This document shows positions 34,468-60,622 of a DNA stretch of 64,000 nt, piece by piece. The DNA is taken from NCBI GenBank assembly GCA_036925085.1, contig JAUPFP010000005.1:4183383-4247382 (forward strand), given 5' to 3'. A program made the translations under genes and the position numbers. The DNA comes from Brachycybe producta (lineage: Eukaryota > Arthropoda > Diplopoda > Playtdesmida > Andrognathidae). Every line of letters begins with the position of its first letter. Position 1 is the stretch's first letter. The notes under the pieces were generated by a model. That model saw only the letters and a list, made by a program, of their open reading frames with translations, was not told the origin of the DNA and ran no database searches.

Positions 34468-37400
34468 ATGGAACACCTGTCAAATAGCAGTAAAGAAACT
34501 TTGAAGGATTTTCCAACAGAAGTGTTCAACCAAGATCAAAGGATACACGGTGGTGTTATCCTTTACGCTGCTGTGGCAATTTACTCTTGCTATGCCCTTT
34601 TTGCAATATGTGATTCCTATTTCATTCCTGCTTTGCACATCTTAATTAAAAGTGAGTCTATTTGCGATGTGATGCATAATTTTGTTATTTCTTGGCTCTA
34701 ATGTTCAAACAACTTTCTGTTTTAGGACTTGGATTAAGTAATGATGTTGCAGGTGCAACAATAATGGCAATGGCATCTGCTGCACCGGGATTTTTTATAT
34801 CTGTAATAGGTGAACTATTTTTACTTCACAATTTATAAAAACGTTTAGGCTACAATTATAAAAAAACAAAAAACATTAACTTATATAAATTTCTGTGTGT
34901 TGCAGGAATTTTTGTGATCCACAATGATTTGGGTCTTGGAAACATTCTTGGATCCTGTGTTTTTAATGTATATGCAGTGATAGGAGTTTGTGGATTAGTC
35001 ATTAAACAGGTGACTATGGCATTTTTTTGCCAACAGAATCTAAACTTTCCCACTTATAATATGGAAGCCATTTTGTCATCTAAGAGTGTAGTTACAAATA
35101 CTCATTCTTCAAATGAAGACAAATTTTAATTGAACCTCAAAATTTGTTTGAAAATAAAAAAGTGGATTTAAATTAATGCAAAAAAGTTAAATTCAATAAT
35201 GATATTTTGAAAGCTAGTTTGAACTTTTCAAGCCTTGTTTTTTTTTTATCCGATTGGAAAATAAATTAAATGAAGAATTCTAAAACTGCCAGAAGCATTA
35301 ATTTAAAAATTTAATTTCTATTCATTAAACTATCGTTATGAATCGTTATTTATTATCGTTTGGAAATTATTTTAAAAGTAATGTTTATCTAAAAGTCTGA
35401 GTTTTCAAATCTCTGTATTTGAAAAAGTAAATTTTACTCAGGTTATATAATGTTAATTATAATTTCAGTTGTTTCTGAACATATTTTTTTAATTCAAACT
35501 ATTGTATTTTGACATACTATTAGTTTCCGAATTACAAGTCATTTTAAAACACTATTTAGTGGATTGGACCAACGCTAAACAAAATTAAAAAAATACAATA
35601 AAAACGCTTGAGTCATATTTTAATTGTTTTTTTTTCAAAATTTCAAAAGATCCGTATTTAGTAAAAATGTATGTCATGATTTCGTAATGGAGATCCACAA
35701 CTTACTTATGTACTACAGATTTAAATGTAATTCTAGAATACGAGAATCTCGCCAATTTAAATATATTTTAACTAGGGCTTTTTGGAAATATATTATAGAG
35801 CTGAGTACAAATATGCTTGCAAATTTTGTTTTACACAAATACTAAACACGTACAAAAAAGCGTGCAAAATATAGAATTTAATATACAATGTACATAGAGG
35901 TTTACAGCGATTTAAAATTTACTTAAAATTTGGTGTGAAATATTCTAAGCATGCTCAGCATGATATATATTAAGCTTTGTCTGTCTGTGTATAACGCTGT
36001 ACTAACAAGGAAAAAAAGATTTAAGCACGTCGGAATTTATTTCGATTAAAATGAACCGGGGTTTTTTCTCATTGTCAACTTTATGTTGCACTCTCCCGAT
36101 CCAAGAACCCATGGTGCTTATAAAAAAATGCAAGCAGTCAAGGCAAATTCACACAAAATGTCATTTATACTGAAGTATTTGAATAAAATAGTTTTCGTAG
36201 CCAAATTAAACTAGAATATTGCTATCGTCATTTATGACGGGTTACCTTGCTAGTTTATAAATAAAATCAAGTGATGTTTACAGACTGGAAGCTTCGTAAC
36301 CCAGTTCCCATGTAAAAGCTCCAACCTAACCCAACCTAATCTAACCCAAACCCAACCTAACCTAACCCAACCTAACCCAACCTAACCCAACCTAACCCAA
36401 CCTAACCCAACCTAACCCAACCTAACCCAACCTAACCTAACCTAACCCAAGCTAACTTAGGTTAACCAACTTCATCCATGCAATCTATAGAGAAAAAACG
36501 ATTTTAAAAGCCATAGACTTCTATTGTAAACTTTAACTTTTGCACACGTTTTTGGGGCGTGTTTGGCGTTTGCGCCAAAAAGATTAGCTTATTCATACCT
36601 TGACAATATCTTTTCAACAAGTTATAGTTTCAATACATTTAAATTGGCGAGAGACTCGTATTCTAGAATTACTTTGAAATCTGTAGCACGCAAGTAAGTT
36701 GTGGATCTCCATTACGAAATCATGACATATAAATGTTTTACTAAATATGGATATTTTGCAATGGTGAACAGTATATTTTCGTGTGAAAAACAATGAAAAT
36801 ATGACTCATGCGTTTTTCATTGTATGTTTTTTTTTGTTTAACGTTTGAATAAAAAAAACAATGCAATAAAAGACAATATTGGTGAATATTTGCCAAATGC
36901 GACATAACCTAATTGTCATATCACGAAATTCGCGAATGTCATAAACGAAATTGTATTATTGACATTTATGTTTACGATAATTGTTATTTAATGTATCTAT
37001 ATATAATTAGGAAATACATATGGAATGGTGGCCTGTAACGAGAGACTGTGCATACTACGTAATAAGTTTGATTCTTTTAACGGTAACACTGGCTGACAAG
37101 AAAATGTATTGGTATGTTAATGGTATCTACTGTATACATAAGATTTTTAAAAACATAGTAATTTTTTTTAATATCTTGAGTTGTTTTGTGTTTACAGTAA
37201 TTTATTTGTCCGAAAACAAAGCGAATAGCAAATTGATTATAAATGATTCAATATGTATTCCTTGCAAGTTGTCGAAGTTGCACTGCTAATGCCAATAAGT
37301 GAACAAATGCCACCACTTTGATTAAAATTGGCATCCTAGCAGTATAGCGCAAGAGGAGCGAATTGGCCAATCGGGCAGTCGGATATTTTCTCTATGGCAC

Positions 37401-40400
37401 AGCTAGCTGAACCTGAAAAAACTTGGAAATGTCAGGGAATTAGAAAATTCTCAAGAGTCAGGGAAAAACTAAAGGGAGAATTTAAGCAAGAAATATGTAA
37501 AAACCTGCCTTCTGCATTTGGGAGCGAAAATCTTATTAAGTCACTTTAAATGGTGATATATATCTAAGGCAAAGTTTGGCACTCTAAAAAGTGCCAATAA
37601 TCACTTTGTTTTCTAACAGTAATTGCCCAATTAGGAGACTCTTTTGCGTTCATATTATCTTTATAAGAGACTGCTAATAAAATCAGCATTGCAGAAGGCA
37701 TTTTGTGACGCAGTTAGGATGCATTTCCCTTGACGAATCTTAACCCAGCCAGTGTTTAATTAAAAAATTTTCAAGCAATCGTTTGCTTAACCTGTAATTA
37801 TTTTACTTCCTTAGCTTTCTCATACTACATTAGGTTTTGCAGTTACTTTCAAATAAAATTCCGGTTGTTCCATGCACTTTTTAAGCATTTTTGTCCTGTA
37901 GTCATACATTGTAGTGCGTTCTCAAATGCGATCTTAGCCGATGTTTATTATAAACCTATGTAGTTTTTGGATCAGAACGTAAAAGAATGATGAAAGCAAT
38001 AACAGATACAGTATAACAAGGCCACTTCCCTTCAACTCTTTAGACATACGAAAAAGTTAAGAAATACGACTCAATTCTATCCTAGCCAATTGGATATCAC
38101 CCATATAATTGCTGCTTTTAATGATATGCAAGAGGTTCAGGCGCAGATAATTTTGAAAAGCAACTTTTCAAACAGATTCAACGTTCATTAGAAGCTAGAA
38201 AGATGTAAAAATGACCTAATGTTGTCTTCAAGATATGATGACTTTTAATGACTTATTTCGTAATTTTAAAGTGGCAACAATTTAGCCGTATTTTCCAAAC
38301 TGTCATGAAATATTTATTTTCAAAGATAATGTAAAAAAATACCATTTTATAAAGTATTTCTTTTCTAATTTCAAATAAACCTGGTGCATCATCATTATAA
38401 AAAAGTCATAAAATTGTGACAAGCAATATTTTATGAGTGTCGCTGCATATGTAATTTGCATACGTTGTAATTTGCTTTTGCTTATGTCAAATCTTTTCTC
38501 TACGACGTATTTTTTACATGTAGAATGGAAAATGTGTCAATACTGAAGTAATAACAAATTATGCACATAATCATTATTATTCATTTTTCAAGGTGGTAGG
38601 TTTTGTATTAAACCAGTTACGCTCTAGCGCATATGATTAGGGACCTCATTACAGAAGAAAAAAATCATAAAAATGTGACTATTATACCTTATATTGTCAC
38701 TGTTGTGATTTATCACTTCATAAATTTTAATATATCATATTTAGCTTTACGTCGACCTTTGGGATATAATTATGACATTATACTGTCTGGCCAGCGTACA
38801 AGAAGCCGGCTTCCAGCAGTGCAGACCAGTTAATCTGTTTGTGTAAATATGGATTAAGCCCCATTTACACTTTAATTTCTCGGCATTTCCTGGCCAGCAC
38901 TGCTGGAAAGTAGTTTCAGATGGGCTAGACACCTTTGTTTGCTGTGTATAAACATTGCTTTGCAGTCACAAAAATACAAATATAAAACAATTATTATAAT
39001 TGTTATGCTTGTATTAAACATTTTCATAAGTAACTATGTAAGTACACAGCTAACAAAGCTGTCTAGCACATCTGAGACTAATTTCCGACAGTGCTGGCCG
39101 GCACATGCTGGTTAACTTGGTGTGTAAATGGGGCTTAATCCATATTTACACAAACAGATTAACTGGTCTACACTGCTGGAAGGCATTTTCTCGCACTCTG
39201 GCCCGCATTTGTTGACTGTCCTTAAACCCTACAATTAATAGCCAACTTGATGGCCATAAATGTTGCCAATGTCCAATCTAAACCGATAATTTTTGTTGGC
39301 TAGCAGTTCTATCCAGTAACTAGCAGTTCTATCCAGTAATTGTTTTAAATTGGAATGAACCGTTGTCTTCTTTCTGTAATTTTTCTTAGAAATAATTTTT
39401 TTTGGGAGAAAACTTAAGTTTTTTTACTGTGTTAAAAATGTTTTCATAACATTTAGTGGCAGTTTGAAGAATTACTATTAAACGTTTTATTTAAATAAAT
39501 GCCATCCAATTATTATTTTTTTTTAATTTAAAGGTCCATCAAATTTTAAATTTTTCTAAAGTTATTTTTACCAATACCAATACCAACTTTTCAAAAATAT
39601 TTGAATTGACGTTCAATTTATTAAATAAATTAGTTTAGAATATTAAAATTAAAATATTTTAAGATAGAATTCCACCTTTTTTTTTTTTTTTTTGAAAATG
39701 TAGGACAAATTTTTATAAGTCACAAGTTGTTAGAAGCAGTTGGGGGCGCAGCGAGAAAAGTTCGTTCTCATTGGTTATTTGGGTTTGTTACGTTTTTGAT
39801 TCTGGTTGTTATGGATTTGTATTTGGTCTGATGCTCATAAAAGGGCGGGGCTAACAGAATTTTTTTGGCTGCACCCAAATGCCTGTCTAATTGTTATGAC
39901 ATATCTTTTGCATTATTGTTTTCGTTTAAGACACAGAGAAACGCATTTTCTCACAAAACTGCAGTTACAACTTTACAACTACATGATAGAATCATAACAT
40001 TTAAGGAAGAAACTTCACAAACAAATTATAAATAACAAAATTAAATATAGCATTTTTTTCGATATGACAGTGTTCTATAATATCGTTTCTTTATTTGGTA
40101 AATTGCCATTATCATTGAGCAAAAACAAATTTATCTCATTAATAGGTACTTAACTAATTATTTTATTAATTAAAAATCGACCTGTGTGACGTTAGGAAAA
40201 ATGTTTTGGCAATGTGTATTTTCAATTCATACATATGAAGCAAACAACTTCCAAAAAAGAAAAAGTCAAGAAAACATTAAAAAACATGCCATATTTATTT
40301 TTAGAAAAAAACAAATTTTATTTAATTAGTGGTTTACCAACTTTATTTTTTAAAGTAAACCAATCAAGTTAAATGCCAAAGAAATGAAATTAGTATACTG

Positions 40401-42211
40401 CTGATTAAAAATATGCTACTTCTTTTAACCATCTAATGCAAGCATGTCAAACTCAAAGGCTAACACGGGCCAAATAAACAAGGTCTAAGTTGATGTGGGC
40501 CGCAAAAAAACAAAAAACTTCAATTTTTATAGAAATGTAGATTTATTTCGAAAAGTACAAACTTATAAAAAAACTGAACAAGGAAAACGGTAAAATTAAT
40601 GTTTTCTTCCTGACACTTGGCATCTCTTCTCTACTACAATCTTTCCTTCTTCGGGGGAAATCTTGTTCGCAGTGATTACTTTCAAAACTGACCCAAGGTG
40701 ACTGTCAGTAGTCTACACTGTGAACGGAAAAAAACGAACCTCTTCATATGTTATTGTAGTATTTATAGAGGTTCGTTTTTTTCCGTTCACAGTATATGGG
40801 GCGCTAAGTGTAAATGGGAACATGATACACGTTTTCTTGGCATTTACACATGCATTGAATGATATATATAAATAACCGTTGTGATTTATATATAACCATT
40901 GTAATTTCTAAATCGCACATTTGTTATTTATAAATCACAACTTATTTGTAAATCACACTTCTGTCATTTATATGTGTGTCATTTATATATTGCATTTGTG
41001 TTATTTAAAATGCAAAAAATATCCCTGTGATTTATAAATAACAGTTGCGATTTATAAATAACACTTGCGATTTATAAAAAAACACTTGCGATTTATAAAT
41101 AACCTGTGATTTATAAATCACAACAGTTATCAATGCAGGCGTGAATGGCAAGAAAACGTGTATCATGTTCCCGTTTACACTTGGCGCCCCATAGTAATCC
41201 TGGATCTGACAGGAAACTTATTTCCGTTCATAAAGAATTCGCATTGATATCACCTTATTGCACTGGGCTGCGCTGATGCACTAAATGGTCAATGTAAATT
41301 GCCAAATCTAAATAGGGTACATAGCATAGAGTTTGCTTGCAACCAGTGCTGCCATACCGATATGGTTACTGGGTTTGTTTATCCAGTAATTTTTAACCAG
41401 AGCCTCTTAAAATTATGAAGGTGCCGGGATGTTCTCAAAACTGTGAGGTCCTCAGAAGCCTATCTAGACCGGAAGGCCCCTGTGAGCCTCTCGAAACTAC
41501 GAATCCCTTTAAGCATATAGCAACAGTGGAGCCCTTGGGAACTTCGCAAAATTGGGTGGCCCCTCAGCCTCTCGAGAGCATTTCATAACTCTAAAATGTA
41601 AATTTACCAAAATTTAACAACTACTTAGATTTCAAACGTGTTTACGTGCCTGGTGCTATATTGAAAAAATGTTAATAGTTTTTGTAGCTCGCTACGCTCG
41701 CCTTGCCACGCGAAACGCCGATGCCGGCCTAGGAATTTGAGGCCAGTATGTACCAGGTTGTCTGTATTCTGTACATGCACAGTTGCACACCTTGCATGAC
41801 TTCATGATCTAAACCAGTTCTAAACCTTTGTCGGAGTTGTATTTGCAAATTTACATGTGAACCGCGTTGGGCAGTACTTGACTGTAGAGTGAAATTTTTT
41901 ATCATCAAATTATTGAATGAATTATTGTCATATTTTTATTTGTTTTAAAGGTATGAAGCACTGATATTAATGATAGCCTATGTCTTCTACATAATAGTTC
42001 TGAAGTATTCTGAGCAACTTAAGTGTTGTATCCAGAGTGCTTTGGAATACCTCCGACTTTATGAGACAATGTGCATTTTGAAAGAACATAAAATGGAAGC
42101 TACAATGGAATCAAAAAATTCGAACGAAAAAGAAAATCAGCTAGCTGTGATTGTGATAAAAGAAGAACAAATTAAAACACCGATTGACGTACGAGTAGAA
42201 AATAGTAGTAT

Positions 42212-42242
<31 letters not shown>

Positions 42243-45200
42243 GCTCCTACAAATCAATCAAAAGAAAAGAATGAAAAATTATTCGATGGAGCAACTAAAA
42301 TAATATTTCCTGATTGTCACAACAAAATTTCAGATTTAAAAAGTATGAAATATATTATTCAAACAAATATCAATGAATGATGGAAGATGTGTTGAACTAA
42401 AAATTGCTTGTTTTAATCATTACAGAAGACGAGCTCTCCAAATTGGCAATTCCATCCTCACTACTAGGAAAATTTATATGGCTTATAACTTTACCCATTG
42501 AAATTCTATACTGCTTAACGGTTCCTGACTGCAAATCTAAAAAATGGGAAAAATTCTACCTGATGACATTCCTCATATCAATTGCATACATTGGAAGTAT
42601 AACATATCTTGTTTCGTGGATGGTGACTGTTATTGGTAAGTTCGTGTCTCTTTGTCGTTGAGTTTTCTACCTCAGCTTATACTAACAATTATTGGTGGTG
42701 TCTTCAGGGGGTGTACTTTTAATCACTTAATGTGTTCTGACTGGCACTTAATACAGTATTGAATATCGTACTCAACACCGACCAATCCAGTATTAAGCTT
42801 GGTGCCACATACTCATCATGATTTGCAAAGAAGCAAAGTTAAAACCCAAATAAACTAAAATTTACCATGACATTGAACAGGAATTTAGATAGATATGGTT
42901 TATTTTCATCAATAACACACTAGCAAAATGTATCTAATTGAAAACCAGATTGAAAGTATCAGTATGAACACAGGAAATGAAGTTTCAATGCTGCTTGAAT
43001 ACCGCATTCAAATCTGGATGGCAGTCGATGCAATCTGAATACATATTAAACGACTATACCAGGTATTGGATTATACCTGATCTCGGTCATGCAGATCGTC
43101 TATTGACAGACTAAAGGAAATCCAGGGCAAGTCCAGAGGATCATGTAGATGAGGGTCGAAATGATAAATGAGAGTTAAAATGGGACCACAGCATAACGTT
43201 TCAAGATATTTCTGTTACAAATTTAGAACGAGTTACTTAGGGTAAACTTCAGCTAGGAGAATAGCTTTCTTGCTTTCTGGTCACCATTGTGACTAGCCGA
43301 CAAGCGACTCAGAATACAGGTCAATACAACAATGTACATACAGTAGAAAATAGGGCACTTTAAGACATAATATGAAAAGAATTAAGATATAATAATAGTA
43401 AAAAAAATGATTAATTAATTATTACATAAATGAGTTAAAGTTTCAATTTAACAATGCAGGTGAGTCACATTATGTCGGTGGTTTCTCACTATCATCACCG
43501 AGTCCTTAATCACTGAAGTCACAATATTGGTGACTAACGATTTTGGCAAGTTGAATCTCACACGAAAGTCCTCAAAAAGTTTGGGAATGTTGTACTAAAA
43601 CGTCAATTTTCGAACTCTCCAATACAGAAAATTTTTTTTTATTTAGTGTACTTGTACAATGGCTGAAAAGGTATAGAAACTACAAAATAATCCTATTCCA
43701 GATTCTGATTCATGGGAATGCAATGAAGTGCTAAAGTGATGCCAAAATTTCAAAAACAAAAGTGATTCATTAACAAATTACAACAGCTATGAATAAATAA
43801 ATTTCATATTAGAATATTTAAAAAAGAACACTTGCAAATATAATTATACTTAACGCGCATAAATAAAATGTTGTTGTTCTCCAGCAGTAAAAGTCTTTGG
43901 TTAATGATTTTAACCTAGTGACGTGGTTTATTTTCACTTAAAGTAAGAAAACACAATAGAAGCAAAAAGTGTTGACAAGTCATTGCACCAAAATAATTTA
44001 CGTCTAGAACTACCTATTAGTTTTTTTTTATTGTTTTCAATTATCTTTGAATCATATCTTTATCCTTGTTGTTATTGCAGCGGTCGCCAACCGGTGGTCC
44101 GCGAGAAATTTTTGGTTGTCCGCCGAAAAATCTACACAATATTTGCATTTTTTTTTTTGTTTTATTAATAATAAAACAAAAAAAAATATTCTTAATAAAT
44201 TCTTCTATTCTGAATGACAATTTTCGCCTTTCTATTGCACTAAATTCACGAAATGTACTAGAGTCTAGTACAGTTCTAATAAAATACGGCACGCGAGAGC
44301 TACTTTTCGTTCAGTTTCCCCCCACCACACGCTTCTCCCCGTAAGCTTCAATTGTTTTTTAGTTATTTTTTGTTACAATTAAACAACCTTTAAAGATGTT
44401 ATATTAATAAAATGGAAGTTCTCTGATCAATGATCATTATTTGACAAACGTATTTATCTTTTTAAAAAATTCATATTAGTGATCCGTGTGGTTTAAAATT
44501 TTGATTTTAGTGGTCCGTGATGTCCGAAAGGTTGGCGACCGCTGTGTTATTGTAGTTTTTTTCTGATTTCATCCGATTGTTTTCGCTGAACAAAATTTTT
44601 AAAACGAAAACGTCTATAGGTTACTCGTACTCAACGTTTTAAACCCATTTTGCACATTTTATTCACGCAATCATAATAATGCTAGCAGCATACTCTAGAA
44701 TGCTACTGCCAAAGTCAATTATTTAAATCTCTTTTTTTGTGTGGTTAAGAATATTTACTTGTATGTTGACTGCCAAAATAACATCTCCACTGAATAATTT
44801 GTGTCTTAAGAATTAGCATTTTATGTTAACCATTCATATGGAAATGATTTTATGTTTGTTTTTATTAAACTGTTATTCTTTACAATAGTTTTGTTTTCTT
44901 TTTAGGCGTCACATTCGCTATTTCGGACACTATCATGGGATACACAGCTCTGTCTATTGGAACTAGCATGCCGGACCTTTTCTGCTCTTTAGCTGTTGCA
45001 CGGCAAGGTATAAATTCATGAGTACAACCAAATAAATATTAACAATACAACGGATGTTAGAAACACAATGTCTGTTTGGGGCGACTGAATAAGCGCCAAA
45101 TTGAACAAACGCCAAACTGAATAAGCGCCAAATTGAACAAACGCCAAACTGAATAACCGCCAAATTTTTGGCTTTTATTCAGTTTGGCGTTTGTTCCATT

Positions 45201-46597
45201 TGGCGCTTATTCAGTTTGGCGTTTGTTCCATTTGGCGCTTATTCAGTTTGGCGTTTGTTCCATTTGGCGCTTATTCAGTTTGACGTTTGTTCCATTTGGC
45301 GTTTATTCAGTTTGGCGGTTATTCAGGTTTTTTGTAAATTCTGATGATCCAAATATTGTGAGCTTTTATAGACGTCAAACTGTGCAGATTTACAAACAGA
45401 ACATGCTAACGTAACCTAACTTATCCTAACCTAACCTAACCAATCCTAACCTAACCAATCCTAACCTAACCTAACCTAACCAAACCTAACCTAACCTAAC
45501 CTAACAATGTGTTTATCACATTTTGGCGGTTATTCAGTTTGGCGCTTGTTCCATTTGGCGTTTATTCAGTTTGGCGTTTGTTCAGATTGGCGTTTGTTCA
45601 ATTTGGCGCTTATTCAATTTGGCGCTTGTTCAATTTGGCGCTTGATCAGCGCCACCGTCTGTTTCTGAAGGGTATCATGGGTATTAAGGTATCACTTATC
45701 ATTGTTATCAATGATAACGAGTGTGTACATATAAAAATGAATATTTTCCCTCCCATATTAGCTATAAATTAATGTGACGCCCTGTATATGGTCTCCCTTT
45801 AAAACTCTAGCTAAGGGGGTCCCCGTACACCCCAAAGTATAAATCACATCCTGGTTCCGGAATTGGCAGATGGATACCCATCGAGACACGGTCCCTTGGG
45901 CATGGGTGCACCTGTGTAATTTTCACAACTATAAACGTACGCTCTGGAAGCCTAAGGCAGTATCTGCCCCTAACGAAGAGAGCATAGACCTGAGTCCCGT
46001 AACATGGGCTATAGCGTTGATTAAAACCCCAAACCTCGTAACATTCAAAACATATTCGTACATACATGTTTCGAAATTCTGTTATACTCGGATTTCCAAA
46101 CTTACTAGCTCATGTAATACATTATAAGTTGAAAGAGCGAACCTTTGTTTGTTTTTTTGTTTTTTTTTCTAATTTCTCAGCGAAAATGAATCAAACAGTC
46201 AAAAAAAAAAATCTTTTATTCAAAAAGTGGACATTACATTTTGAACATGTTTCACGTAATTTTTTAAATGCTCGATTTATCTGATTTGATAAATTTCATG
46301 TTAATAGGTTTTGGAAACATGGCCTTAGCCAATGGAATAGGCAGCAACATAATGGACATCCTCGTCAATCTTAGTCTTCCTTGGTTCGTGAAATGTATTC
46401 TGCCAGGATCAATAGGATATTCGAGCGTAACAGATAAAAATGTCACCTACATTATTACAGTTATGATTTTATCTGTTTTTCCAATTTATGGCGTGTTGCT
46501 TCACCATCATTTTAATTTAAATCGAAAAGTTGCATTCATATCATTGGGATTATACGTCATTTTCGTAACACTTTCTGTGGTGCTGTCTATTTTATAA
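34468..46597 (+). CDS. NCKX-A: SLC24-type Na+/Ca2+-K+ exchanger-like protein, 488 aa, 8 exons
   Basis: Exons I resolved: 34468-34651, 34726-34809, 34906-35009, 37011-37111, 41951-42342, 42426-42635, 44906-45007, 46308-46597. All introns are GT-AG, phases agree, and the sum is 489 codons including stop. The product is a membrane cation exchanger of the SLC24 family, which normally extrudes Ca2+ with K+ in exchange for Na+. Seen: the N-terminal family signature (QDQRIHGG, then CDSYFIPAL), alpha-1 repeat about residues 62-124, a second hydrophobic segment with WYEALIL at 158-164, a hydrophilic cytosolic loop with ten threonines at 246-255, hydrophobic segment 300-358, and alpha-2 from 359 (GTSMPD, then GSNIMD). 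Odd: the alpha-1 motif normally reading SAPEL is AAPGF (Ala80, Gly83), while alpha-2 Asp382 and Asp409 are kept. There is no long N-terminal extracellular region or cleavable leader. The start is chosen because the paralogue starts at the same place. A pyrimidine/CAG acceptor lies 16 nt upstream of the ATG, so a 5'UTR intron is likely. The exon 5 donor is the least certain junction. Confidence 0.9.
35980..36253. mobile_element. Helitron-like non-autonomous element, copy 2 (NCKX-A intron 3)
   Basis: It begins TCTGTCTGTGTATAACGCTG and ends with the hairpin CGTCATTTATGACG, a 10-12 nt spacer and CTAG followed by T. This fits Helitron insertion between A and T at the 3' side. The 5' boundary is less clear because the flanking base is not A. 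Confidence 0.6.
36318..36470. repeat. CCTAACCCAA tandem array (NCKX-A intron 3)
   Basis: About 14 units of CCTAACCCAA with some CCTAACCTAA. It resembles a diverged interstitial form of the arthropod telomere unit (CCTAA)n. It begins about 65 bp after the Helitron-like element end. Confidence 0.85.
38800..39190. mobile_element. Fold-back MITE with ~65-bp arms (NCKX-A intron 4)
   Basis: The left arm GGCTTCCAGCAGTGCAGACC continues through ATATGGATTAAGCCCC to ATTTACAC. It is inverted at 39117-39185 (GTGTAAATGGGGCTTAATCC to CTGCTGGAAGGC). Confidence 0.7.
40715..40793. repeat. Perfect 27-bp-arm hairpin next to a MITE
   Basis: ACTGTGAACGGAAAAAAACG plus AACCTCT is mirrored by AGAGGTTCG...CCGTTCACAGT around a ~24-bp loop. 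It directly abuts the MITE at 40795. Confidence 0.75.
40795..41193. mobile_element. MITE with ~52-bp TIRs and GTA flanks (NCKX-A intron 4)
   Basis: The left end TATGGGGCGCTAAGTGTAAA and the following GGGAACATGATACACGTTTTC are mirrored by the right end GTTTACACTTGGCGCCCCATA. Three-base GTA flanks lie on both sides. The centre is a series of GATTTATAAATAAC-type palindromes. Confidence 0.75.
42213..42242 (+). repeat. (ACT)10 coding microsatellite in NCKX-A exon 5
   Basis: Ten consecutive ACT codons encode a threonine run at residues 246-255, in the cytosolic loop between the two transport halves. The paralogue lacks it, so it arose or expanded after duplication. Being in frame, length changes would only lengthen or shorten the loop. 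Confidence 0.9.
43260..43600 (-). pseudogene. LINE C-terminal fragment in NCKX-A intron 6
   Basis: It is homologous to the fragment at 28620, sharing the 3' end TGAGTCGCTTGTCGGCTAGTC and the decayed IVTSVIKDSV region. It is antisense to NCKX-A. Confidence 0.5.
44078..44544. mobile_element. Non-autonomous hAT element with perfect 8-bp target duplication (NCKX-A intron 6)
   Basis: The ends CAGCGGTCGCCAACC and GGTTGGCGACCGCTG are inverses, and TGTTATTG flanks both sides (44070-44077, 44545-44552). It is 467 bp long with no transposase and is AT-rich inside. It lies about 360 bp before exon 7. Confidence 0.85.
45083..45660. repeat. Head-to-head minisatellite (CGCCAA / TTGGCG) with a CCTAA array inside (NCKX-A intron 7)
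   Basis: The left arm (45083-45165) repeats a ~32-bp unit AAGCGCCAAATTGAACAAAC-GCCAAACTGAAT. At about 45170 the orientation flips, and 45176-45332 and 45524-45655 repeat the inverse (TTGGCGCTTATTCAG, TTGGCGTTTGTTC). The array starts about 80 bp after the exon 7 donor. Confidence 0.9.
45411..45506. repeat. (CCTAA)n interstitial telomere-like array
   Basis: Repeated CCTAA/CCTAACC units with a few CCAAT interruptions lie between two parts of the TTGGCG minisatellite. The unit equals the arthropod telomere repeat TTAGG on the other strand. Confidence 0.85.
45773..46020 (+). mobile_element. Shortened LTR of family B (NCKX-A intron 7)
   Basis: It starts TGTGACGCCCTGTATATGG and shares the blocks GCATGGGTGCACC and AGAGCATAGACCTGAGTCC with the LTR at 14534. 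The central promoter and poly(A) parts are missing. The right edge is uncertain. Confidence 0.5.
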
Positions 46598-50020: not shown

Positions 50021-50030
50021 TCCCAACAAC

Positions 50031-50265: not shown

Positions 50266-50420
50266 CCAACAACTTAAAACCTGGAGACCAAGAAAGTGAA
50301 GACAAGTTTGTGGACGACACACTTAATTATTAATGCTGTTTCAGTGAAAATAATAGTAGAAAATGATCAAGATCCATTTCTTTTTTAATAAACTTTGTTT
50401 TTTCCCTTTGTTTTTACCCC

Positions 50421-50524: not shown

Positions 50525-50945
50525 TTATTTGTAAACGCTGTGGGGATCGACATGAAACTTTGAAATTGTCATTCAAAAAAATGAACAAGAAAGGACTCTG
50601 ATCGTTTTTAGATGTATCCCTTCAATTGGATATGTTTTATATTCTTATTAAGACGTTAAAAATATTTTAATATCGTCATTACAAGATAATATATGCAAAC
50701 GATCCAATGTTGCACGAATGGGTCTAGCAACCAAACGGCGATACATACACGATGTAAGATGTTCCTAAAGAACAACACGTGGTAAACAGAATGGGTCTCT
50801 TTTGTTTGTTTTTGAGGTGCCATCAATTCTTTGTAGTTCATGAATTCCCCCCAAAAAAAACATTTAAAATGCATAAAATATTTTTTAATACGGTACAAAT
50901 CACAATAATTGTCACATGCTGATACAGCCAGAGTGTAAACTCATT

Positions 50946-50951
50946 TTTATT
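50946..50951 (-). terminator. Candidate poly(A) signal for NCKX-B
   Basis: AATAAA on the minus strand starts 23 nt after the NCKX-B stop codon. If used, the 3'UTR would be very short and would not reach the 49-bp palindrome at 50421-50524. Confidence 0.35.
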
Positions 50952-50973
50952 ATACAAATTTGTAAATGTTGTT

Positions 50974-53900
50974 TCAGTTGTTATTTAAAACAGAAAATAG
51001 AATCGAGAATGTTATAAAAATGATATACAAAAACAAGGATATTAATGCTACTCTATGATTTAAATTAAAATGATAATGCAATAAGACAATATAAATTGGA
51101 AATATTGAAACAATCATACTGATGATAATATAATTGATGTTCTTGTCGGGAATGTTGACGAATCCTTTCGATGATGGCAGTATGCACACTATTATCCATG
51201 GAATACTAAGATTGAAAAGAATGTCCATTATGTTGCTGCCTATTCCATTGGCTATTGCCATGTTAGCGAGACCTGCAACAGATTAATATTCTTTATTAAA
51301 TAATTACTGCATGTATACTTGCGTTGTCCTAGTCAGCTTGTGTCTTTAGGCTCTCGTTACGATCACTGCAGCTAATACACCGCATACGGCATTACAGAAA
51401 AATGACGTAAAACATATAGATGTCAACGGTTCGCCAATTACTGGAACTGATAGAACCGGTTCGCCAGTATAGGTCGAACTGATAAGAACTGGTTCCGAAC
51501 CTAATAGAAACGATTCGGGTCTACCAATTGCTACAGCTAGTAAGTACCACACTGCATTGTGGTACAAGGTGTCGGCCGACGGCACTGACATTATTTTGAT
51601 TGTCATTTTTTCTGAAATTATGTATGCATTAGCGTAATGCTGTGAGTGTAATGCGTGAGCTCATGAGCTGCATGAGCGTAACGAGAGCATTAGAGAGATT
51701 AATGAAAAATATAGGATTGTTTCATTTTGTCTGATAAAAAGGGGTAATAGCAAATGTTTTCAACAATTGAAACATAACGATTTCAAGCATTTTTTTGTTA
51801 TTACTCCTTTGTATTACAACACAAATGACACAATCCTAATTTTGTTGGCAATCCTTCTGACATCACAAGTTTCTTCAAAGGGCGATGCAAGTGTATCTAG
51901 TGTAACACCCTGTAAATCGTGATCCCGCCAAAACCATAGCCCGGGGGTAAACAACTCTCAACCGTCCCTCCCTCCCCTCTGACTCACCTTTCTGACTCAT
52001 ACCCAAGCGGCGGATTGATACAAATAGGAACATGGTCACTTGGACCTGGTTACACCTCGCAGGTGTACACAGGTCCAAGGTATAAAAGGACCGCGCTCCT
52101 GTTTGTCTTCAGTTCTTGTCCTTTGCCTGTATTCCGTGATAAATTCCGAATCATGGGCCTGAGGACGCACCGTTAGTATTTTACATATTCATCCTTGTAT
52201 TCTGTGTTTCTTACAAGTGATGAATAAAAGTGTTATAACAAGAAACAGCGTTGTCTTTCTGTAATGTAACCAGCTTCTCTTCAGAGGCCGGAGACTCTAC
52301 AGGGCAAGAGTTATACGATTCTCAGCAGCTACAACATCTTCTCTTGTCGGGATACCGAAAGGAGAAGATGTACATCAGCATCAACCGGAAGAGAGAGAGA
52401 GATGGCCGCCACTCTCCTGCATCGATTTCACCCCCATGCAGAGGAGTGACCACGATCTGTCTCCATCCAACTCTCTCTGCAGCTCGAATCTTCTCCGTGC
52501 GGGCACCGTACTGTTCAGAGAGGATTCGAGGTACAGAAAATGTCATCTAAAGGTTGGTAATAAATATTGGTTGATGTCAAAAGCTCACACTAGAGTGGCA
52601 TTGTATGATAGTTCCAGAAGAAGTTCTACCTTGTCTTGCAACTGCTAAAGAGCAGAAAAGGTCTGCCATGCTGGTACCAATGGCTAATGCTGTGTACCCC
52701 ATGATCGTGTCTGGAATGCAGAATGTCACGCCTGTTGTACATAAAATAAACAGAATGTTAAGTTTAGTGATTTTTCAAGATATAACTGGATAAAGTTAAC
52801 TTTGATACGTGCCACGTTTACTTCTAATGAATAAACAGCAATTTTTTTTTACTACAAAATACCAAACTACTAATTCCAATAGTATTCTTATTTAGATATG
52901 CTATAAAATTAATCTTTCTTATATATGTAACTCATAAATTACATAAAATTAACAAGAAAATAAAGCATAAGGAAATAAACACGTTAACGAAACTAGACTA
53001 ATGTAAGTAGTCTAAATAGGAAGTGACTTTCTAATTGGTCACATGAATTACTTACATTTTAGAGGCTGTTTTAAAAAAAAAGAAACACTTTGAAAAAATT
53101 CAAGCAACTGTTATTTAGTTGTGAATTTTTTTAAAAAAAATCTACAGTATGTTGCCAATTTATTGAATTGGTAAAAGCCGTGTGGTTTTTTTTGTGCATG
53201 TAAAGGTGGCACTATTTCGAATTTCTATTTAATTTAGCACACACTGCCTAAGCATAGTTCCAGCTTTTTAGTAGCAACTTTTAAAGGAAAGTAAAAGTTT
53301 ATTTTTAATCCAATAGCTTTGACACTTCAGCTCGCACGTGCTGCATGACACCATGGACTAGACACACTCCATAGTTAGGCGAAAAATTGTCGTTTCCAAA
53401 AACATGGTCTCAATTCTAGCTATGCCTTTGATGCCTTTAAGTTGAACTTTTAAAGGTAATTCAAGTCACAAACTCTTCTTGAATGCAATTCTTTGCTATA
53501 TTTAAAGGAGTTTTATTTTATACAATTTTGAATTATGCTAATTCGCGTCACCCATGTTAAAGTTCATTGACCTTAATAAAGTCCATTTCGCCGGCCGCAT
53601 TTCGCACTCTTTAAAATCATCTTTGAGCTTTAAGAAAAATTGTATGTTTTCCTTAATATTTTCTACGGGTACTAAGATAAATTTACCACGTTTCGAATTG
53701 CAGGTGGGTTGCTAGAGCCTTTTGAGCAACTTTGGAACCACAAATTTAACCTGTGACTCATGGCACGTGAAACTCTGAAGTGTCACTAGGCTCTTAACTG
53801 ACTGAATGTATTGTCAATGTGGAATTACTGAAAGTAAATGTTTGACTAACTTCACCATATTTTTTTTTTCACAAAATGAATTGACTTTTTCAAACTTTCC

Positions 53901-56900
53901 AAAATCATAAAAATAATAAAAGTTATGGAATTTTTTATATTCTTTGTATTAAGCTTGTTTTAATTTGCTTCTAAACTTAGATTTGAACTGAAATATGAAT
54001 AGGCATGTTGATAATTTTAAATGAGTTATTCAGAATTAGGCTGAAAACGATACCAATGACTGTAGCCATCCACGATACAAAATATGTAATAATTCCAACA
54101 TATATAATCGATATGACGAATGTCACCAGGTAGAACTTTTCCCATTTTTCTTTCTTACAGTCAGGTACACTTATGAAGTATATGGTATCAATGGGTATAG
54201 TTAGAAACCACATGAGTTTCCTGTGTATTGAGGATAGGATTTTCAATTTACATGAAGATTCCTTTTCTATAATACAAAAATAAATATTAACTAAGTATAA
54301 TTTTCAAATTTGTATACAAGTAGTTATCACCCGAAACTAAAATATTACCTTCTGGACATATGGTGTTAGCAATAGTGCTTTTGGTTTCTACTTGTTCGGA
54401 GTTTTTGTCTTCACTTTTTTTGCTTAACACCATTTTTTGCTTTATACTTTCGTCATTATTGACCACAACAACCACATCTGGATGATTTTCTTTTTCTTTT
54501 GATTCTTGTGGTGGTGTACTAACATTTGTTTTGCAATTCAGTATATTTGTTTTCAAGTGGTTCATATGCTGAAGAAGAAAGCACTTGAGTTGTTCCGAGT
54601 ACTTAAGTATTAATACATAGAAGCCATAGGCAATCAATAATATCAGTGCTTCATACCTGTTAAAAAAATTGATAACAAATTAAAAAACAAATTGAATTTT
54701 TGTTTTTTCGCTGGACATTTTTGCTATTTCCAAAGTTTCCAAGAACATCACTGGAGCTTAGCATTAGCCACTGCAGTGAGGTAGGGGGGTTACGAAAACA
54801 AAATAACTATCTAATCAGCCACCTTAACTAATTCTGTAATTTAATATAATTACACAACTTTATAGATTATTTTAATAGTATTTCCGCATACATTATACAA
54901 ATGTATTTGAGGATATGCACAACAACATATGACTGAGTCACATTATTATGCAAATCGCATTTGTATTAGTGCTGGTCACTATCAGTGTCTAAAAGGTAGG
55001 TGTTCTAAAATCCATACTCTACATGCTTACATCCATACATCTTATAACTTGTTTGTGAACAAAAAATGTTTTATATAGACGTACATAATGAAGCAGTTAG
55101 TTTTATTTCATTTCAATTTAAATATTATAATTGTTTCTCTCATGAAAATTATTCATGAGTTAGACAAAGAGAGTCTATTTTTGGCAACTTGCCGTTCAAT
55201 TTAGTGTTCCTTTAATTAAATTATTTTTGTTTTCATTTCAAATTATTTTACTGGTTTTTTTTTTCAAGTGTTGTTTAAAACATTGCCAATAAAAGCGTAA
55301 CAATCACCGTTAAGAGTCTATACATCGCCAAAATTATTTTGAAAAATCTCCACAATGAGCACTAGCATCGTTTTTCAATTGAGAGTACGTAGTGTCAGGT
55401 AAAATACTAAAATAACATGCTGCTCGGCAGTGAAAATATCTGAGGGTGACAAATTCATACCATGCAGCTTACCAATGCTGATATCTCTTAATAAAATTAT
55501 GTAGATTGACTTGTTCTTTTTTATGGCTATTCTAAACTACTTGTCTAAAAAGCTTATTTCACGCCAAACTTATTTAACCAGTTATTTCACGCAATTATAA
55601 TATACTTATTAGTAATATCTAGATCTATTAGTAAATCTACTTATGGTAAAATAATCTAGATATTACTAATAAGTATATGATAATTACGTGAAATAACTGG
55701 TTTTTCCACTGTTTTCAGAAGATAAACTTATTTCAATGAAAATGATAGGCCCTACATTCCTTACCAATAGATTTTGTTGTCAGACAATGTCACTGCTAAC
55801 ACGTTTAAACTAATTATGTAGTATGCAAAGTCTCGTGTAATGGGCCACCATTCCATATGAATATGCTAGGAAGAAAAAAGAGAGAAAATATTATGAATTT
55901 ATGGATATCTACGAGCGTACAGTATTCACTAATATATACTAATATACAGTGTACAGTATCATAGTTTGTTAAGGGCTGACTTTGTATCTCCCTCCCTTTG
56001 TGCACGAATGTTCTTGGAAACTACACACTCTAGAATCGTGAAAATTAACCAGTATACACATCTTTAGATGAGATTCTTGGTAGACTACATTAGCATTTTC
56101 AATTGTTTTCTGTTTAATTACCACATTTTTGTGAAAAATCATAAAATTTCATGAGCAGGCATCACGCTTTTTTTTCAAAGAATAAATTAACCCATGTGGG
56201 TTATGGTAAAGGTCGTTTTTGATCTCACAATTAACATTTACAATTACAAAAATTGGTTATGTATTTGGCAGAGAGTTAGTGAGGAAGAGGTCTTTGGTTC
56301 AAATCCTGGCTGGAGTTTTTCTGTATTAACGCGGGATCAAGCAAAGTATTTACTCGAAATGTATACCACGAAGTGTTCTCAATCTGAGATCTAAGGAGCA
56401 CTCAACTGGCCCCAGAAGTCCCATAAAGCTTGAAAAAACAAGACTTTAATAATTTTTAAAATTAAAAAAAATGAGTCAAAAACCAAGGCTTTTTTAAAAA
56501 AACGGCCAAAAGTCGATAAATATTTAAATACTCTAAAAGCTGTAAGAATGCCTCAGGAGCGCACAACTGGCGCTCAGAAAGCTTGAAAAAGCACAAGGAT
56601 TCAAGAATTTTTAAAATTCGAAAAAATGGATCAAAAGCAAAGACTTGGCTTTTTTCAAAAAACTGCCAAAAGTCTAAAAATAAAAAATTTATATTATAAT
56701 TAAGTATAATTACCTGTTTAATGAGTAACCCACAAATTCCAATTACTACATACACATTAAAAACACAAGATCCAAGAATGTTCCCAAGCCCCAAATCGTT
56801 ATGAGTGATAAACGTACCTGCAACAAACATTCAGTGAGTCAATAAATAAAAAGTAATTTGCTCATGAGGATGAGCACAGAGCAAAAAAATAATACTTTCA

Positions 56901-59900
56901 TTTAATTTCCAAGATACCAATGCATGGTTGCAAACTCAAAACAATTTGTCATACTGTCACACAGACATGTTTTTCTGATAAATGGGAATTGGTGTGGCAA
57001 TCTTTTTTGTATTTTATTTGTTGATAGCACTGAGCATCAGCTAGCGTAGCCTTACCTTATGAGAATGTTCATTAGGAAAGTACAAACTACAGATTATATA
57101 CAGTTTGTATATCTTGTATCTGTCTCTTGGGAGAAATGATCCGAGCAAATACTTTTTTGTGACACGACCCACACATGACCAATGACCAATGTGTAAGTCG
57201 CATTCCTGAGCGCCCTGAAAGATGGCACCTCCTGGTGCCCAGGTGGCCCTAAGAATGTGGCGAAAAGAGTTTCCCATCGCCCACGACATATGTAAAAGCG
57301 ATTACATAGAGAAAATTGGAATTCCTTCTAATTTGCTCATGGCACTTGGCAGATAATAATTCTTGAAAATATTCCCCAAAATGATTTAAATATTCTAAAA
57401 AAAATTAGTTCCCAAAAAGGAAATGTTTTGAGAACAGGATAACCTCGTGGCACTTTTTGAAGACGTTTTTATGCAATTTAAGTGATTATGGTTAAAGAGT
57501 TTTAAGAGTTTTGGAATTTTCAAAGCATCAGAATATTTTCAAGTACAACTTCAATGTTCGATGGCACAGTGCTGATCACTCAGTGTAAAGTCAATTTCTG
57601 TGGCATAGGCTACCAGTGCAATGTCGGTAGAAATAAGAGTTAATTCAACTGTTGTCGTGTTTTTGTTTTACCTTTTGGAGGTTCAGAAGCCAATCATCAT
57701 TGTTCCTAAATAGGAATAGGATACCCTATTACATTAGGAGCTAACCAGAGAGCTACAACGGGGGTGGAAGTAGTCTTTTGCCCTAAAACAGGATTGACAA
57801 AAGTCAGTAAAATAACAGGAACTAACAAACCACCACCTCGCAGAAGTCCAGGCATGTTACACTTTTATTACGAGCAAAAGCTCAGATCTAAAATATTCAT
57901 ATAAAAACGAGCAAATACTCATACTCCAATTATTCGCATAAGAGCAAGAAGTAATTACTTTGTTTAAATTCATATCACCCGTAGCGAAAAAATATTATTT
58001 CGAATCATCTAATATCATAATTTGCTAAGGGCTGACTCCCTCCCTCCCTTTGTGCACGAATGTTCTCGGAAACTACACACTCTAGAATCATGAAAATTAA
58101 CCAGTATACACATCTTTAGATGGGCTTTTTGGTAGGCTACATTAGAATGTTCAATTTTGTTCCGTTTAAATTATTTTTGTGAAAAATCATCAAATTTTAA
58201 AAAACCCCGCAACATATAAAAGTTGGCAGCCACGAAAGCAGACTTTATTGCATCACGTTTTTTTCAAAGAATAAATTAACCCATGTGGGTCAAGGTAAAG
58301 GTCACCTTTGATCTCACAATTTACATTGGTAACAAATTTGGTTATGTCTCATGAGAGAGGTCCTTGGATCAAGTCCTGGCTGGGGTTTTTGTAAATTAAT
58401 TTCTTCAATGCAAGGCAAGCTTATAATAATAGTAGGATCAAGAAAAGTATTTACTCCAAATGTATATCACGAAGGGTTCTCAATCTGAGGTATTATACAG
58501 TGCGTAAATGTTTATAATGTTATAAATGTTTATAAAATTATAACAAAATGTAAATGTTTATAACATGCAACAAATTTTATAACTTGGGCTATACTTCATG
58601 TATTTGCCTGAAATTTTCAACATTTTCATCCTATATTATAAACGTTCTGCTAGGCAGAAAGTTTTTTCCAAAAAAGGTAAAAATTTAGAAAATTAAAAAC
58701 TGGAAAATGGCAGTTTCATAAACAAACTAATGAACTTTTCACTTTTATCAATTAATGTGACAAAATAACATACTGAACGCAACTGTAACATTATAATTAA
58801 TAAAGTATACAACTGCCCTGATGTTTTATAAATTAACACATTGATTTCTACATACTTTAAACAATATTTATAAGAAAATTTACAAAAGTTCTGCCCAGAA
58901 GCAGCTAAAATGGCACTTTTCAGCTCTACTGCTGTAGTATAATCATGGCAATCTGCTTAATCATTATGTACAATGATGTCCTAAAAGTTCTCTGTAGGAT
59001 TTAAGTCTGGGGGACACGCCGGTCATTTGAGAGTGGTGATATTTTGGTTTTGTAACCATTTATTCCTTACGTTACTGGAGTGAACTGGTACATTTCCTTG
59101 TTGGAATACTAACCTAACACTAGGAAATCAACTTTGGACTGTTAGTAAACACTTTCATAATGTTGTCTGATAATAAACATTATTTTTTTGGTTGAAATGG
59201 AGGCAAAGCTACTCATTGCAAAGGGCACTAAACACTGCATAATGTTAGGCTCTCACCACCAAACTACATGATTTTGACGTGTTTTTTTTTCTTTCTTTTT
59301 TATATTGGAAGGATGTGAGAAAATCACCGCAATATTTTCTAAATCAAAATTTTGGCAGTGGGTCAGCTTAATGATATGGGAAACATTTAGTGTCTTTGGA
59401 ATGAGCAGCTTAGTTTTTCAACTGCATGCATAGCTTAGGATTTATTTCAACCTAAACAAATATTATTGATTATCAGACAATGTTTGGAGGGTGTGTACTG
59501 CCATAAAAACATCGATTCCCTAACATTAGCTTAGTATTCCAACAAGAAAATGCACCAGTTCCCTCCAGTAACCTAACGAAAAAATGGTTACGAAACGAAA
59601 ATACCACCACTCTCGAATGGCCGATGAGTTTTCCCAACTTAATTCCTATAGAGAACAGTTGGTGCATCATCTTAAGTGATGAGTAAGCAGATTGCCGAGA
59701 TTATAATACATTAGCAAAGCCCAAAAGGGCCATTTTAGCTGCTTCGGGGCAGAATTTCTGTAAATTTCTTCATAAATATTGTTTAAAGTATGCAGAAAAT
59801 AATGATTTCAGTTATAAAACATCAGGACAGTCCTATACTTCATTAATTTTAATGTTACTGTTGTGTTCAGCATGTTATTTTGTCGCAATAATTAATAAAA

Positions 59901-60622
59901 GTGAAAAGTTCGTTAGTGCCTCTTTTTTAACAAAGGTAAAAATTAAAAAAATTAAAAACTAAAATGACCGTTTTATAATTATAGATCTGTAATTATAAAA
60001 CGGTCATTTTACAATTTTTAATTTTTTTAATTTTTACCTTTGTTAAAAAAATTTTTTTTGACCGGCAGAAAATTTCTAACATAAAATGTTTTCTTTATTT
60101 CGAAAATTTCAGGCGAATCAATCAAGTGTAACTCGAGTTATAACCGATTTCTGGGGCTATAAGGCTATCATCACTATCACACCCGTTGAAGACGGGCTTT
60201 CTTTCTAGTACAATATAATTAGGCTATGTTTTCTTATAATAAATTATGAAGTTCTTACTTATTATGGATATAAAAAATCCCGGTGCTGCCGATGCCATTG
60301 CCATAATGGTTGCTCCTGCAACATCATTAGCTAATCCGAGTTCTATATGTTAACGTAGAGAATTACTACATTTCGTAATGTAACAAGAATATATTAGTTA
60401 AAGTTAACTTTTAATTTACTTACTTTTAATTAAGATGTTCAAAGCAGGAATGAAATATTTATCACAAATTATAAAAAGTGCGTAACAAGAATAAATTGCT
60501 CCAAATACATAACAGATAAAACCACCATGCAATCTTTGTTTTTGGTCAAATATTTCTGCTGGAAAATGCCTTAGAGAAACGCTCAGTATTTCCTCGCTAC
60601 TGTTGTTTGAAAATCGTTCCAT
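50974..60622 (-). CDS. NCKX-B: SLC24-type Na+/Ca2+-K+ exchanger-like protein, 469 aa, 8 exons
   Basis: Exons in transcription order, all on minus: 60622-60424, 60342-60259, 56817-56714, 55865-55765, 54656-54349, 54266-54054, 52731-52630, 51272-50974. Phases agree and the sum is 470 codons including stop. It is the inverted paralogue of the gene at 34468-46597: every intron is at the same place and phase, and exons 2, 3, 4 and 7 have equal lengths (84, 104, 101, 102 nt). The domain order is that of an NCKX exchanger: N-terminal QKQRLHGG and CDKYFIPAL, alpha-1 about 67-130, a short acidic/lysine-rich cytosolic loop without the threonine run, and alpha-2 from 337. The alpha-1 motif is again AAPGF, with Gly88 where family members have Glu. 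In alpha-2 the Asp360 is kept, but the preceding Pro is Ala (GTSMAD). Asn384 and Asp387 of GSNIMD are kept. No stops or frameshifts were seen, so it looks intact. Transport activity is inferred from family only. Confidence 0.9.
51320..51610. repeat. Dispersed repeat in NCKX-B intron 7 (relative of 10080-10190)
   Basis: It shares GCTAATACACCGCATACGGC, CATTACAGAAAAATGACGT and CATTGTGGTACAAG with the other copy in inverted orientation. Inside are short direct repeats of CCGGTTCGCCA/CGGTTCGCCAAT. Confidence 0.45.
51901..52589 (+). mobile_element. Solo LTR, family A, copy 3, with CTAG target duplication (NCKX-B intron 7)
   Basis: It runs from TGTAACACCC to AAAAGCTCACA and is flanked by CTAG on both sides (51897-51900 and 52590-52593). 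This defines the element ends and fits gypsy-type insertion. TATAAAAGGACC lies near 52080 and AATAAA near 52222. It is antisense to NCKX-B, and its end lies 40 bp from the donor of exon 7. Confidence 0.8.
52742..54053. other. NCKX-B intron 6, nothing recognised
   Basis: It is AT-rich and contains no partner repeat that I could find in this window. No exon-like frame. Confidence 0.4.
55578..55704. repeat. Fold-back repeat in NCKX-B intron 4 region
   Basis: AACCAGTTATTTCACG...ATACTTATTAGTAATATCTAGA is mirrored by TCTAGATATTACTAATAAGT...CGTGAAATAACTGGTT around a short AT-rich centre. The arms are about 50 bp. Confidence 0.75.
55970..56394. repeat. Dispersed ~420-bp repeat with tRNA-like B-box word, copy 1 (NCKX-B intron 3)
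   Basis: It is collinear with 58010-58495 in the same orientation. It contains GGTTCAAATCC at 56308 preceded by GGCAGAGAGTTAGTGAGG, resembling the B and A boxes of a tRNA-derived SINE. No full tRNA fold is present. Confidence 0.5.
56395..56690. repeat. Two tandem ~150-bp units next to NCKX-B exon 3
   Basis: Two diverged copies share GGAGC-CACAACTGG, AAGCTTGAAAAA-CA, AATTTTTAAAATT, GGCTTTTTT and GCCAAAAGTC in the same order. They end about 25 bp from the exon 3 donor side. Confidence 0.5.
57041..57300. repeat. GC-richer repeat fragment in NCKX-B intron 2
   Basis: The block GATGGCACCTCCTGGTGCCC resembles ATGGCACCCCTTGGTGCAC of the LTR-like segment at 5590, so it may be an LTR scrap. The open frame on its minus strand is not supported as a gene. 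Confidence 0.3.
58010..58495. repeat. Dispersed ~420-bp repeat, copy 2 (NCKX-B intron 2)
   Basis: It is a diverged second copy of the repeat at 55970, sharing CTCCCTTTGTGCACGAATGT and TTAACCCATGTGGGT. Its B-box-like word is GGATCAAGTCC. It has an extra ~45-bp stretch about 200 bp in. Confidence 0.5.
58920..59135 (-). pseudogene. Tc1/mariner transposase fragment, minus strand (NCKX-B intron 2)
   Basis: The minus frame reads VFQQGNVPVHSSNVRNKWLQ, NITTL, a TGA where family members have Trp, then PACPPDLNPTENF and a TAG. This is the FQQDNA...PDLNPIE region of the DDE transposase. The two stops make it non-functional. Confidence 0.7.
59500..59690 (+). pseudogene. Tc1/mariner transposase fragment, plus strand (NCKX-B intron 2)
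   Basis: The plus frame reads VFQQENAPVPSSNLTKKWLR, then TTTLEWPMSFPNLIPIENSW. It is the same region as the fragment at 58920, in opposite orientation. The catalytic aspartate of PDLNPIE is Asn here. Confidence 0.7.
59923..60051. repeat. Near-perfect ~58-bp-arm palindrome at the edge of the Tc1 remnant
   Basis: TTTTTTAACAAAGGTAAAAA...GACCGTTTTATAATTA is mirrored by TAATTATAAAACGGTC...TTTTTACCTTTGTTAAAAAA around TAGATCTG, with one short mismatch cluster. Related sequence lies at 58660-58740. Confidence 0.75.

Follow-up and report, generated by a model that had tools for sequence, protein, structure and literature searches.

Two inverted NCKX-type genes of the millipede Brachycybe producta share an altered alpha-1 pocket motif and remain under purifying selection

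The stretch of 64,000 nucleotides analyzed here (the window, to which all positions refer unless another locus is named) comes from contig JAUPFP010000005.1 of the millipede Brachycybe producta and contains two related genes of the NCKX (SLC24) type in opposite orientation. NCKX-A lies on the + strand (34468-46597) and encodes 488 residues, and NCKX-B lies on the - strand (60622-50974) and encodes 469 residues. In both, eight exons give one continuous reading frame without internal stop codons, and the exons are separated by GT/AG introns. Joining the exons from the DNA reproduces the product lengths given in a first-pass annotation of this stretch, made from the sequence alone. A third gene of this type, called copy C here, is the tandem neighbour of the pair and is found about 1.1 kb past the end of the window (locus L009, 3492-7299, - strand). 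Exons 2, 3, 4 and 7 have the same lengths in NCKX-A, NCKX-B and copy C, with 84 nucleotides for exon 2. The exons of the pair are the following:

34468..34651, + strand, NCKX-A exon 1: start codon and first transmembrane segment (TM1)
34726..34809, + strand, NCKX-A exon 2: first half of alpha-1, MASAAPGFF; Ala80 codon 34779-34781, Gly83 codon 34788-34790
34906..35009, + strand, NCKX-A exon 3: second half of alpha-1, GNILGSCVFN
37011..37111, + strand, NCKX-A exon 4
41951..42342, + strand, NCKX-A exon 5: TM5 and cytoplasmic loop with a poly-Thr run
42426..42635, + strand, NCKX-A exon 6
44906..45007, + strand, NCKX-A exon 7: alpha-2 GTSMPDLF; Asp382 codon 44974-44976
46308..46597, + strand, NCKX-A exon 8: second half of alpha-2, GSNIMDI, Asp409 codon 46355-46357; runs to the stop codon
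60424..60622, - strand, NCKX-B exon 1
60259..60342, - strand, NCKX-B exon 2: MASAAPGFF; Ala85 codon 60289-60287, Gly88 codon 60280-60278
56714..56817, - strand, NCKX-B exon 3: GNILGSCVFN
55765..55865, - strand, NCKX-B exon 4
54349..54656, - strand, NCKX-B exon 5
54054..54266, - strand, NCKX-B exon 6
52630..52731, - strand, NCKX-B exon 7: alpha-2 GTSMADLF, with Pro changed to Ala before Asp360; Asp360 codon 52663-52661
50974..51272, - strand, NCKX-B exon 8: GSNIMDI, Asp387 codon 51225-51223; runs to the stop codon

The main feature of the pair is the loss of the acidic residue of the first alpha repeat. As the first-pass annotation had noticed, both proteins carry the motif MASAAPGFF (M77-A-S-A80-A-P-G83-F-F in NCKX-A, M82-A-S-A85-A-P-G88-F-F in NCKX-B), and both keep the alpha-2 aspartates (Asp382 and Asp409 in NCKX-A, Asp360 and Asp387 in NCKX-B); all of its residue numbers are correct. 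Human NCKX2 numbers (179, 183, 185, 188, 207, 211, 212, 215, 544, 545, 548, 571 and 575) are used below for the positions of A and B which we take to be equivalent. In place of the alpha-1 motif G(S/G)SAPE with its Ca2+-binding glutamate the two proteins have ASAAPG, and the glycine at the altered site is encoded by GGA in both (34788-34790 on the + strand, 60280-60278 on the - strand). The alpha-2 motif GTS(I/V)PD, which includes the Asp548 equivalent, appears as GTSMPD in NCKX-A and GTSMAD in NCKX-B: the aspartate is kept, Ile/Val is replaced by Met in both, and the proline is lost in NCKX-B, where Ala stands directly ahead of the aspartate (SMADLF). The equivalent of Asp575, associated with K+ dependence, is present within GSNIMDI, and the equivalents of Ser211, Asn215, Thr544, Ser545, Asp548, Ser571 and Asp575 are all retained in both copies. 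Compared with the five paralogues C-G described below, A and B further share the alpha-1 changes Phe179Ile, Gly183Ala, Thr207Asn and Ala212Cys, and in alpha-2 two replacements of Phe, one by Ala and the other by Met.

An acid gained nearby, named in the first-pass annotation as a finding that would undo its interpretation, did not turn up as far as the comparison reaches: column by column in the aligned core, which leaves out the cytoplasmic loop, the TM5 block and the protein ends, no compensating acid was gained in either alpha repeat of A or B. At only two places of this core, TLPI[E]/TIPI[D] and SVT[D]K/NIP[D]K, do A and B both carry an acid that C-G all lack, and these places are outside the alpha repeats. 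Gly184Ser and Ala182Met were left out of the count because both occur in relatives that keep the glutamate (Ser184 in paralogues E and F and most bacterial rows; Met182 in paralogue D and the bacterial loci L044 and L048), even though both positions are dead as cysteine in NCKX2.

The assignment to the SLC24 type, for which the first-pass annotation had proposed a family search and a tree, is supported by both. Two Na_Ca_ex (PF01699) stretches are found in each of A (1.8e-43) and B (2.3e-44), and the best NCBIfam match of both proteins is the K+-dependent exchanger model TIGR00927 (A 3.6e-79, B 2.1e-80), although both scores, 267 and 271 bits, stay below the cut-off of 710 set for this profile of 1209 positions. 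In a tree rooted on eight bacterial relatives, the A+B branch sits inside the NCKX set of the genome. This set comprises, besides the pair, copy C and paralogues D (L012), E (L013), F (L014, with a second copy at L015) and G (L001 and L007); the row for G combines pieces separated by 65 kb, which are assumed to belong to one gene. The two F loci represent one NCKX gene on two contigs (C158 and C6) with identical peptide blocks, perhaps uncollapsed haplotypes.

Among these relatives the substitution is confined to the pair. The alpha-1 glutamate column holds Glu in 13 of 13 relatives (the five paralogues and eight bacterial sequences) and Gly in A and B only; likewise, at the columns equivalent to Ser185 and Gly183, all 13 have Ser and Gly, respectively, where A and B have Ala. 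When the window and 18 loci were scanned for the motif with a pattern that allowed only E, G, D or Q at the glutamate site, nine further alpha-1 rows were recovered, all of them with Glu (L008 and L013 represent a single place, and L002 and L003 look NCX-type). The prokaryote scan, based on the A/B/C alignment, relied on two patterns, DVAGAT[IF]M and [ED]WWP[VIL]TRD, neither of which includes the glutamate; it gave 31 stretches, eight of them encoding relatives, and all eight have PE at the altered site. The Phe179 site was not judged from these bacterial rows, since the first pattern fixes Ile or Phe there. The NCKX-related proteins come from bacteria (L043, Roizmanbacteria, and L044-L050), several of which belong to candidate phyla, are 28-40% identical in the best segment and have DVAGATFMA and SAPE motifs in common. 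Scans of viral contigs revealed no relative, and no NCKX with this alpha-1 substitution is described among the matches listed in searches of open-licence PubMed Central (titles and abstract openings).

Comparison of A and B over 459 codons (63% amino-acid identity) gives a synonymous divergence (dS) of 0.95 and a nonsynonymous divergence (dN) of 0.25, i.e. a dN/dS of 0.263 (bootstrap 0.194-0.343). The earlier statement that a ligand was lost yet the reading frames stayed intact is borne out, with purifying selection besides. Judged by dN and identity, conservation is highest in the two alpha repeats (84% identity each), with a dN of 0.092 and dN/dS of 0.157 for alpha-1 and a dN of 0.083 and dN/dS of 0.096 for alpha-2; Fisher tests on rounded synonymous and nonsynonymous counts give p=3.4e-6 and p=2.6e-8, respectively. 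The corresponding values of dN and dN/dS are 0.221 and 0.28 for exon 1, 0.249 and 0.41 for exon 6, 0.134 and 0.107 for the membrane part of exons 4-5, and 0.281 and 0.128 for the rest of exon 8. The cytoplasmic loop, compared over 76 codons, shows 26% identity, a dN of 0.732 and a dN/dS of 0.556, a ratio that cannot be told from neutrality (p=0.089). In the shared core blocks the A-B dN/dS amounts to 0.096 for alpha and 0.252 for non-alpha positions. The altered motif lies within the first 20 codons of alpha-1, over which the two genes differ by six synonymous and no nonsynonymous changes. Since 13 aligned relatives have Glu and the copies share the motif despite these six synonymous differences, more than chance is involved. 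On the simplest reading of the sequences, the pocket changed before the split of A and B and was held afterwards.

The same values bear on an error of assembly or gene model in exon 2, which the first-pass annotation had listed as a possible refutation. No support for such an error was found, and the objection fails as far as tested: the motif is present at two diverged loci with different synonymous codons, and exon 2 has its 84 nucleotides in A, B and C. We give this explanation practically no credence. Indeed, both an assembly error and fresh decay are unlikely because of the dS of 0.95, the dN/dS of 0.26 and the absence of amino-acid differences at the start of alpha-1.

Regarding the history of the pair, the A+B clade has a support of 100 with and without the bacterial outgroup, whereas copy C as nearest relative is weakly supported (65 in the two trees of seven sequences and 59 in the tree of 15). 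A comparison of A and B over their seven introns and roughly 1 kb of 5' flanking sequence gave no intron-intron match at E <= 0.01; three matches, 21-33 bases long, involve the flank of A. Recent gene conversion is therefore unlikely. The view of the first-pass annotation that the change predates the duplication remains the simplest reading, given the clade support and the lack of intron similarity that would suggest conversion. The simplest history for these sequences would be that a C-like gene was duplicated, that the pocket then changed, and that an inverted duplication subsequently gave A and B.

The A+B stem is long (0.78-1.10), and the A and B tips are about as short as those of C and D. 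In the core blocks the alpha dN is lower than the non-alpha dN between A and B (0.073 vs. 0.191) and between C and D (0.146 vs. 0.351), whereas the two are similar between A and C (0.432 vs. 0.415) and between B and C (0.429 vs. 0.485); core dS is saturated for the three pairs with D, from which no ratio was drawn. The pattern of the A-C and B-C comparisons implies that the repeats, relative to the rest, changed faster on the branch between A/B and C/D. Protein distances show the same in weaker form, with alpha/other ratios of 0.35-0.57 for A or B with C-G and 0.21-0.46 among C-G. A statistic for the stem itself indicates more change in the repeats than expected (ratio 2.06, bootstrap 0.99-4.23), and a burst of repeat change on the A+B stem is suggestive only. 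The long stem, together with the extra alpha-2 changes in NCKX-B, could also be read as drift towards loss after relaxation of constraint. We regard this as very unlikely, as frames and splice sites are intact in both copies at this level of synonymous divergence, the overall dN/dS is low and the repeats are the most conserved part by dN.

It is instructive to compare A and B with the closest known systems. With the NCKX/SLC24 proteins (NCKX2; TIGR00927) they share the two Na_Ca_ex stretches, the Asp548 and Asp575 equivalents and the exon pattern in common with copy C, but differ by ASAAPG in place of alpha-1 G(S/G)SAPE. Copy C, nearest to them in the trees, keeps the alpha-1 glutamate (GTSSPEFF) and has Glu in alpha-2 (GTSVPEGY) where A and B have Asp. 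This alpha-2 glutamate is common to copy C and paralogue D (GTSVPEA). The nine solved-structure sequences matched by NCKX-A are all forms of NCX_Mj, NCX1 and NCLX. The best match is NCX_Mj (PDB 3v5u, 5hwy; E 2e-15), which has the GN..GSC of the second alpha-1 helix in common with it, but whose GTSLPE glutamate stands opposite the glycine of ASAAPG in the five alignments listed, all of them with NCX_Mj. The NCLX/CCX exchangers (SLC8B1) offer a precedent for a CaCA exchanger with a changed pocket and changed coupling (H+/Ca2+; PMC12571890); NCLX, however, keeps an acid in both repeats (D153 and D471), and A and B lack its GNGAPD. The NCLX/CCX motifs, GNG(A/S)PD in alpha-1 and (G/S)(N/D)SxGD in alpha-2, which were taken like the NCKX alpha-1 motif from PMC4232491, are replaced in A and B by ASAAPG and GTSM(P/A)D. 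Certain nematode NCKX proteins are natural relatives with one altered repeat, but in the reverse arrangement, alpha-2 being atypical and alpha-1 kept (PMC4232491).

Experiments on other exchangers suggest what the substitution might do. In a cysteine scan of human NCKX2, 12 of 146 substitutions left less than 1% activity, including E188C, D548C, S545C, S211C, S571C and G184C, a loss that according to the authors is not explained by expression or trafficking (PMC12150658). The alpha-1 glutamate mutant E143Q of NCKX5 is described as devoid of Ca2+ transport in vitro, and it gave no rescue of pigmentation in Xenopus (PMC5503238). In the same assay human NCKX5 D383N, the equivalent of a Ca2+-dead NCKX2 mutant, partly rescued pigmentation, so that an NCKX role without full exchange was proposed (PMC5503238). 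D153 and D471 of NCLX, one acid from each repeat, clamp Ca2+, and a double charge-preserving change kept transport (PMC12571890).

On these grounds A and B probably do something other than ordinary calcium exchange, either altered (perhaps monovalent) transport or a regulatory role of transport-dead proteins. The latter, in which pseudo-exchangers would be kept for structure or regulation, e.g. as membrane scaffolds or in dimers with copy C or another NCKX protein, is a real possibility, though one we hold at rather low confidence: the alpha-1 Glu and Ser are lost with no compensating acid in the repeats, the E188C mutant is dead and the D383N mutant partly rescues, but E143Q does not, the remaining ion ligands are kept, and constraint is weakest in the loop, the part in which one might expect partners to bind. 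Because the remaining ligands are conserved and the loop is weakly constrained, altered ion transport is favoured over a pure scaffold, although not by much. Since the repeats stay the most conserved regions by dN and identity, A and B most likely still bind and move cations. Tentatively, and with somewhat less than even confidence, we thus favour the reading that they are not dead copies but SLC24-derived proteins which no longer act as canonical exchangers and would move cations with a changed selectivity and coupling.

According to this favoured reading, an inverted duplicate pair would have arisen beside an ordinary-looking NCKX gene, copy C, and in the common ancestor of A and B the alpha-1 half of the cation pocket would have been remodelled (Gly183Ala, Ser185Ala, Glu188Gly and neighbours) while the alpha-2 ligands Thr544, Ser545, Asp548, Ser571 and Asp575 and the alpha-1 Ser211/Asn215 equivalents were retained. 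With one pocket carboxylate gone, the canonical exchange of 4 Na+ for 1 Ca2+ and 1 K+ would be lost or greatly weakened, and the two remaining aspartates might hold e.g. Na+, K+ or H+. A more specific form, which we consider rather doubtful, would make A and B an SLC24-derived class that uses the alpha-2 aspartates alone for monovalent cations, a K+/Na+ or cation/H+ exchanger kept as two copies.

Several points weigh against the favoured reading. By dN/dS alpha-1 is not the lowest region, the membrane part of exons 4-5 and the rest of exon 8 being lower, and purifying selection on the repeats could also preserve the fold or dimer contacts. The burst on the stem is borderline (2.65% of bootstraps are <= 1), and A/B-specific changes at invariant columns are not enriched in the repeats (9/45 vs. 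8/31 elsewhere). The alpha-2 proline and two glycines kept in NCKX-A are lost in NCKX-B, and Ser185 has gone along with the glutamate. The Asn and Cys found in GNILGSC at the Thr207 and Ala212 sites are the states of NCX_Mj and are therefore compatible with a working exchanger. Both proteins pass the 179.65-bit cut-off of the calcium/sodium antiporter model TIGR00367 (A 206.9, B 211.5), a result that is uninformative on the altered residue. Finally, NCLX D153N lowered transport without abolishing it (PMC12571890), hence A and B may still transport some Ca2+. The last two points and the conserved alpha-2 acids could be accommodated if A and B were still Ca2+ exchangers of low affinity or other stoichiometry, in which the two alpha-2 aspartates, together with backbone oxygens, would bind Ca2+. 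The residual activity below 1% of NCKX2 E188C (PMC12150658), the reported effect of NCKX5 E143Q on transport (PMC5503238) and the additional loss of Ser185 make this unlikely.

Some further observations concern the surroundings of the pair and the assembly. Intron 7 of NCKX-A contains, at 45084-45648, a 16/32-base minisatellite of the TTTGGCGTTTATTCAG family in two orientations, flanking about 100 bases of a CTAAC repeat, which we take to be an arthropod telomere-type unit. On the - strand at 2207-2497 there is an open stretch encoding a cytochrome P450 fragment (Pfam p450, 3e-17). Elsewhere, L036 (C1:12697416-12698753) and L037/L038 (C17) appear to be nuclear copies of mitochondrial cox1, one of which covers profile positions 1-435 with one TAA. 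Contig C442 (L041 and L042; 15359 bases) is mitochondrial (code 5), and its gene order, with genes named by eye, looks rearranged, with nad4L-nad4 sharing the strand of cox1 and nad2 following cytb. A search with the odorant receptor profile gave eight matches, none of them strong (best 5.1e-6); two of these, L029 and L034, were inspected and fit profiles of chemosensory or gustatory type best. Together with the code-5 mitochondrial contig, these receptors would suggest an arthropod that is perhaps not a winged insect.

The alpha-1 glutamate is one of the two acids thought indispensable in Na+/Ca2+ exchangers. Having lost this acid while selection was kept, the A/B pair would constitute a natural experiment on what the other half of the pocket does alone. 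Moreover, the pair makes it possible to test whether NCKX proteins have a role that does not depend on full calcium exchange, a question that has been raised for NCKX5 in pigment cells.

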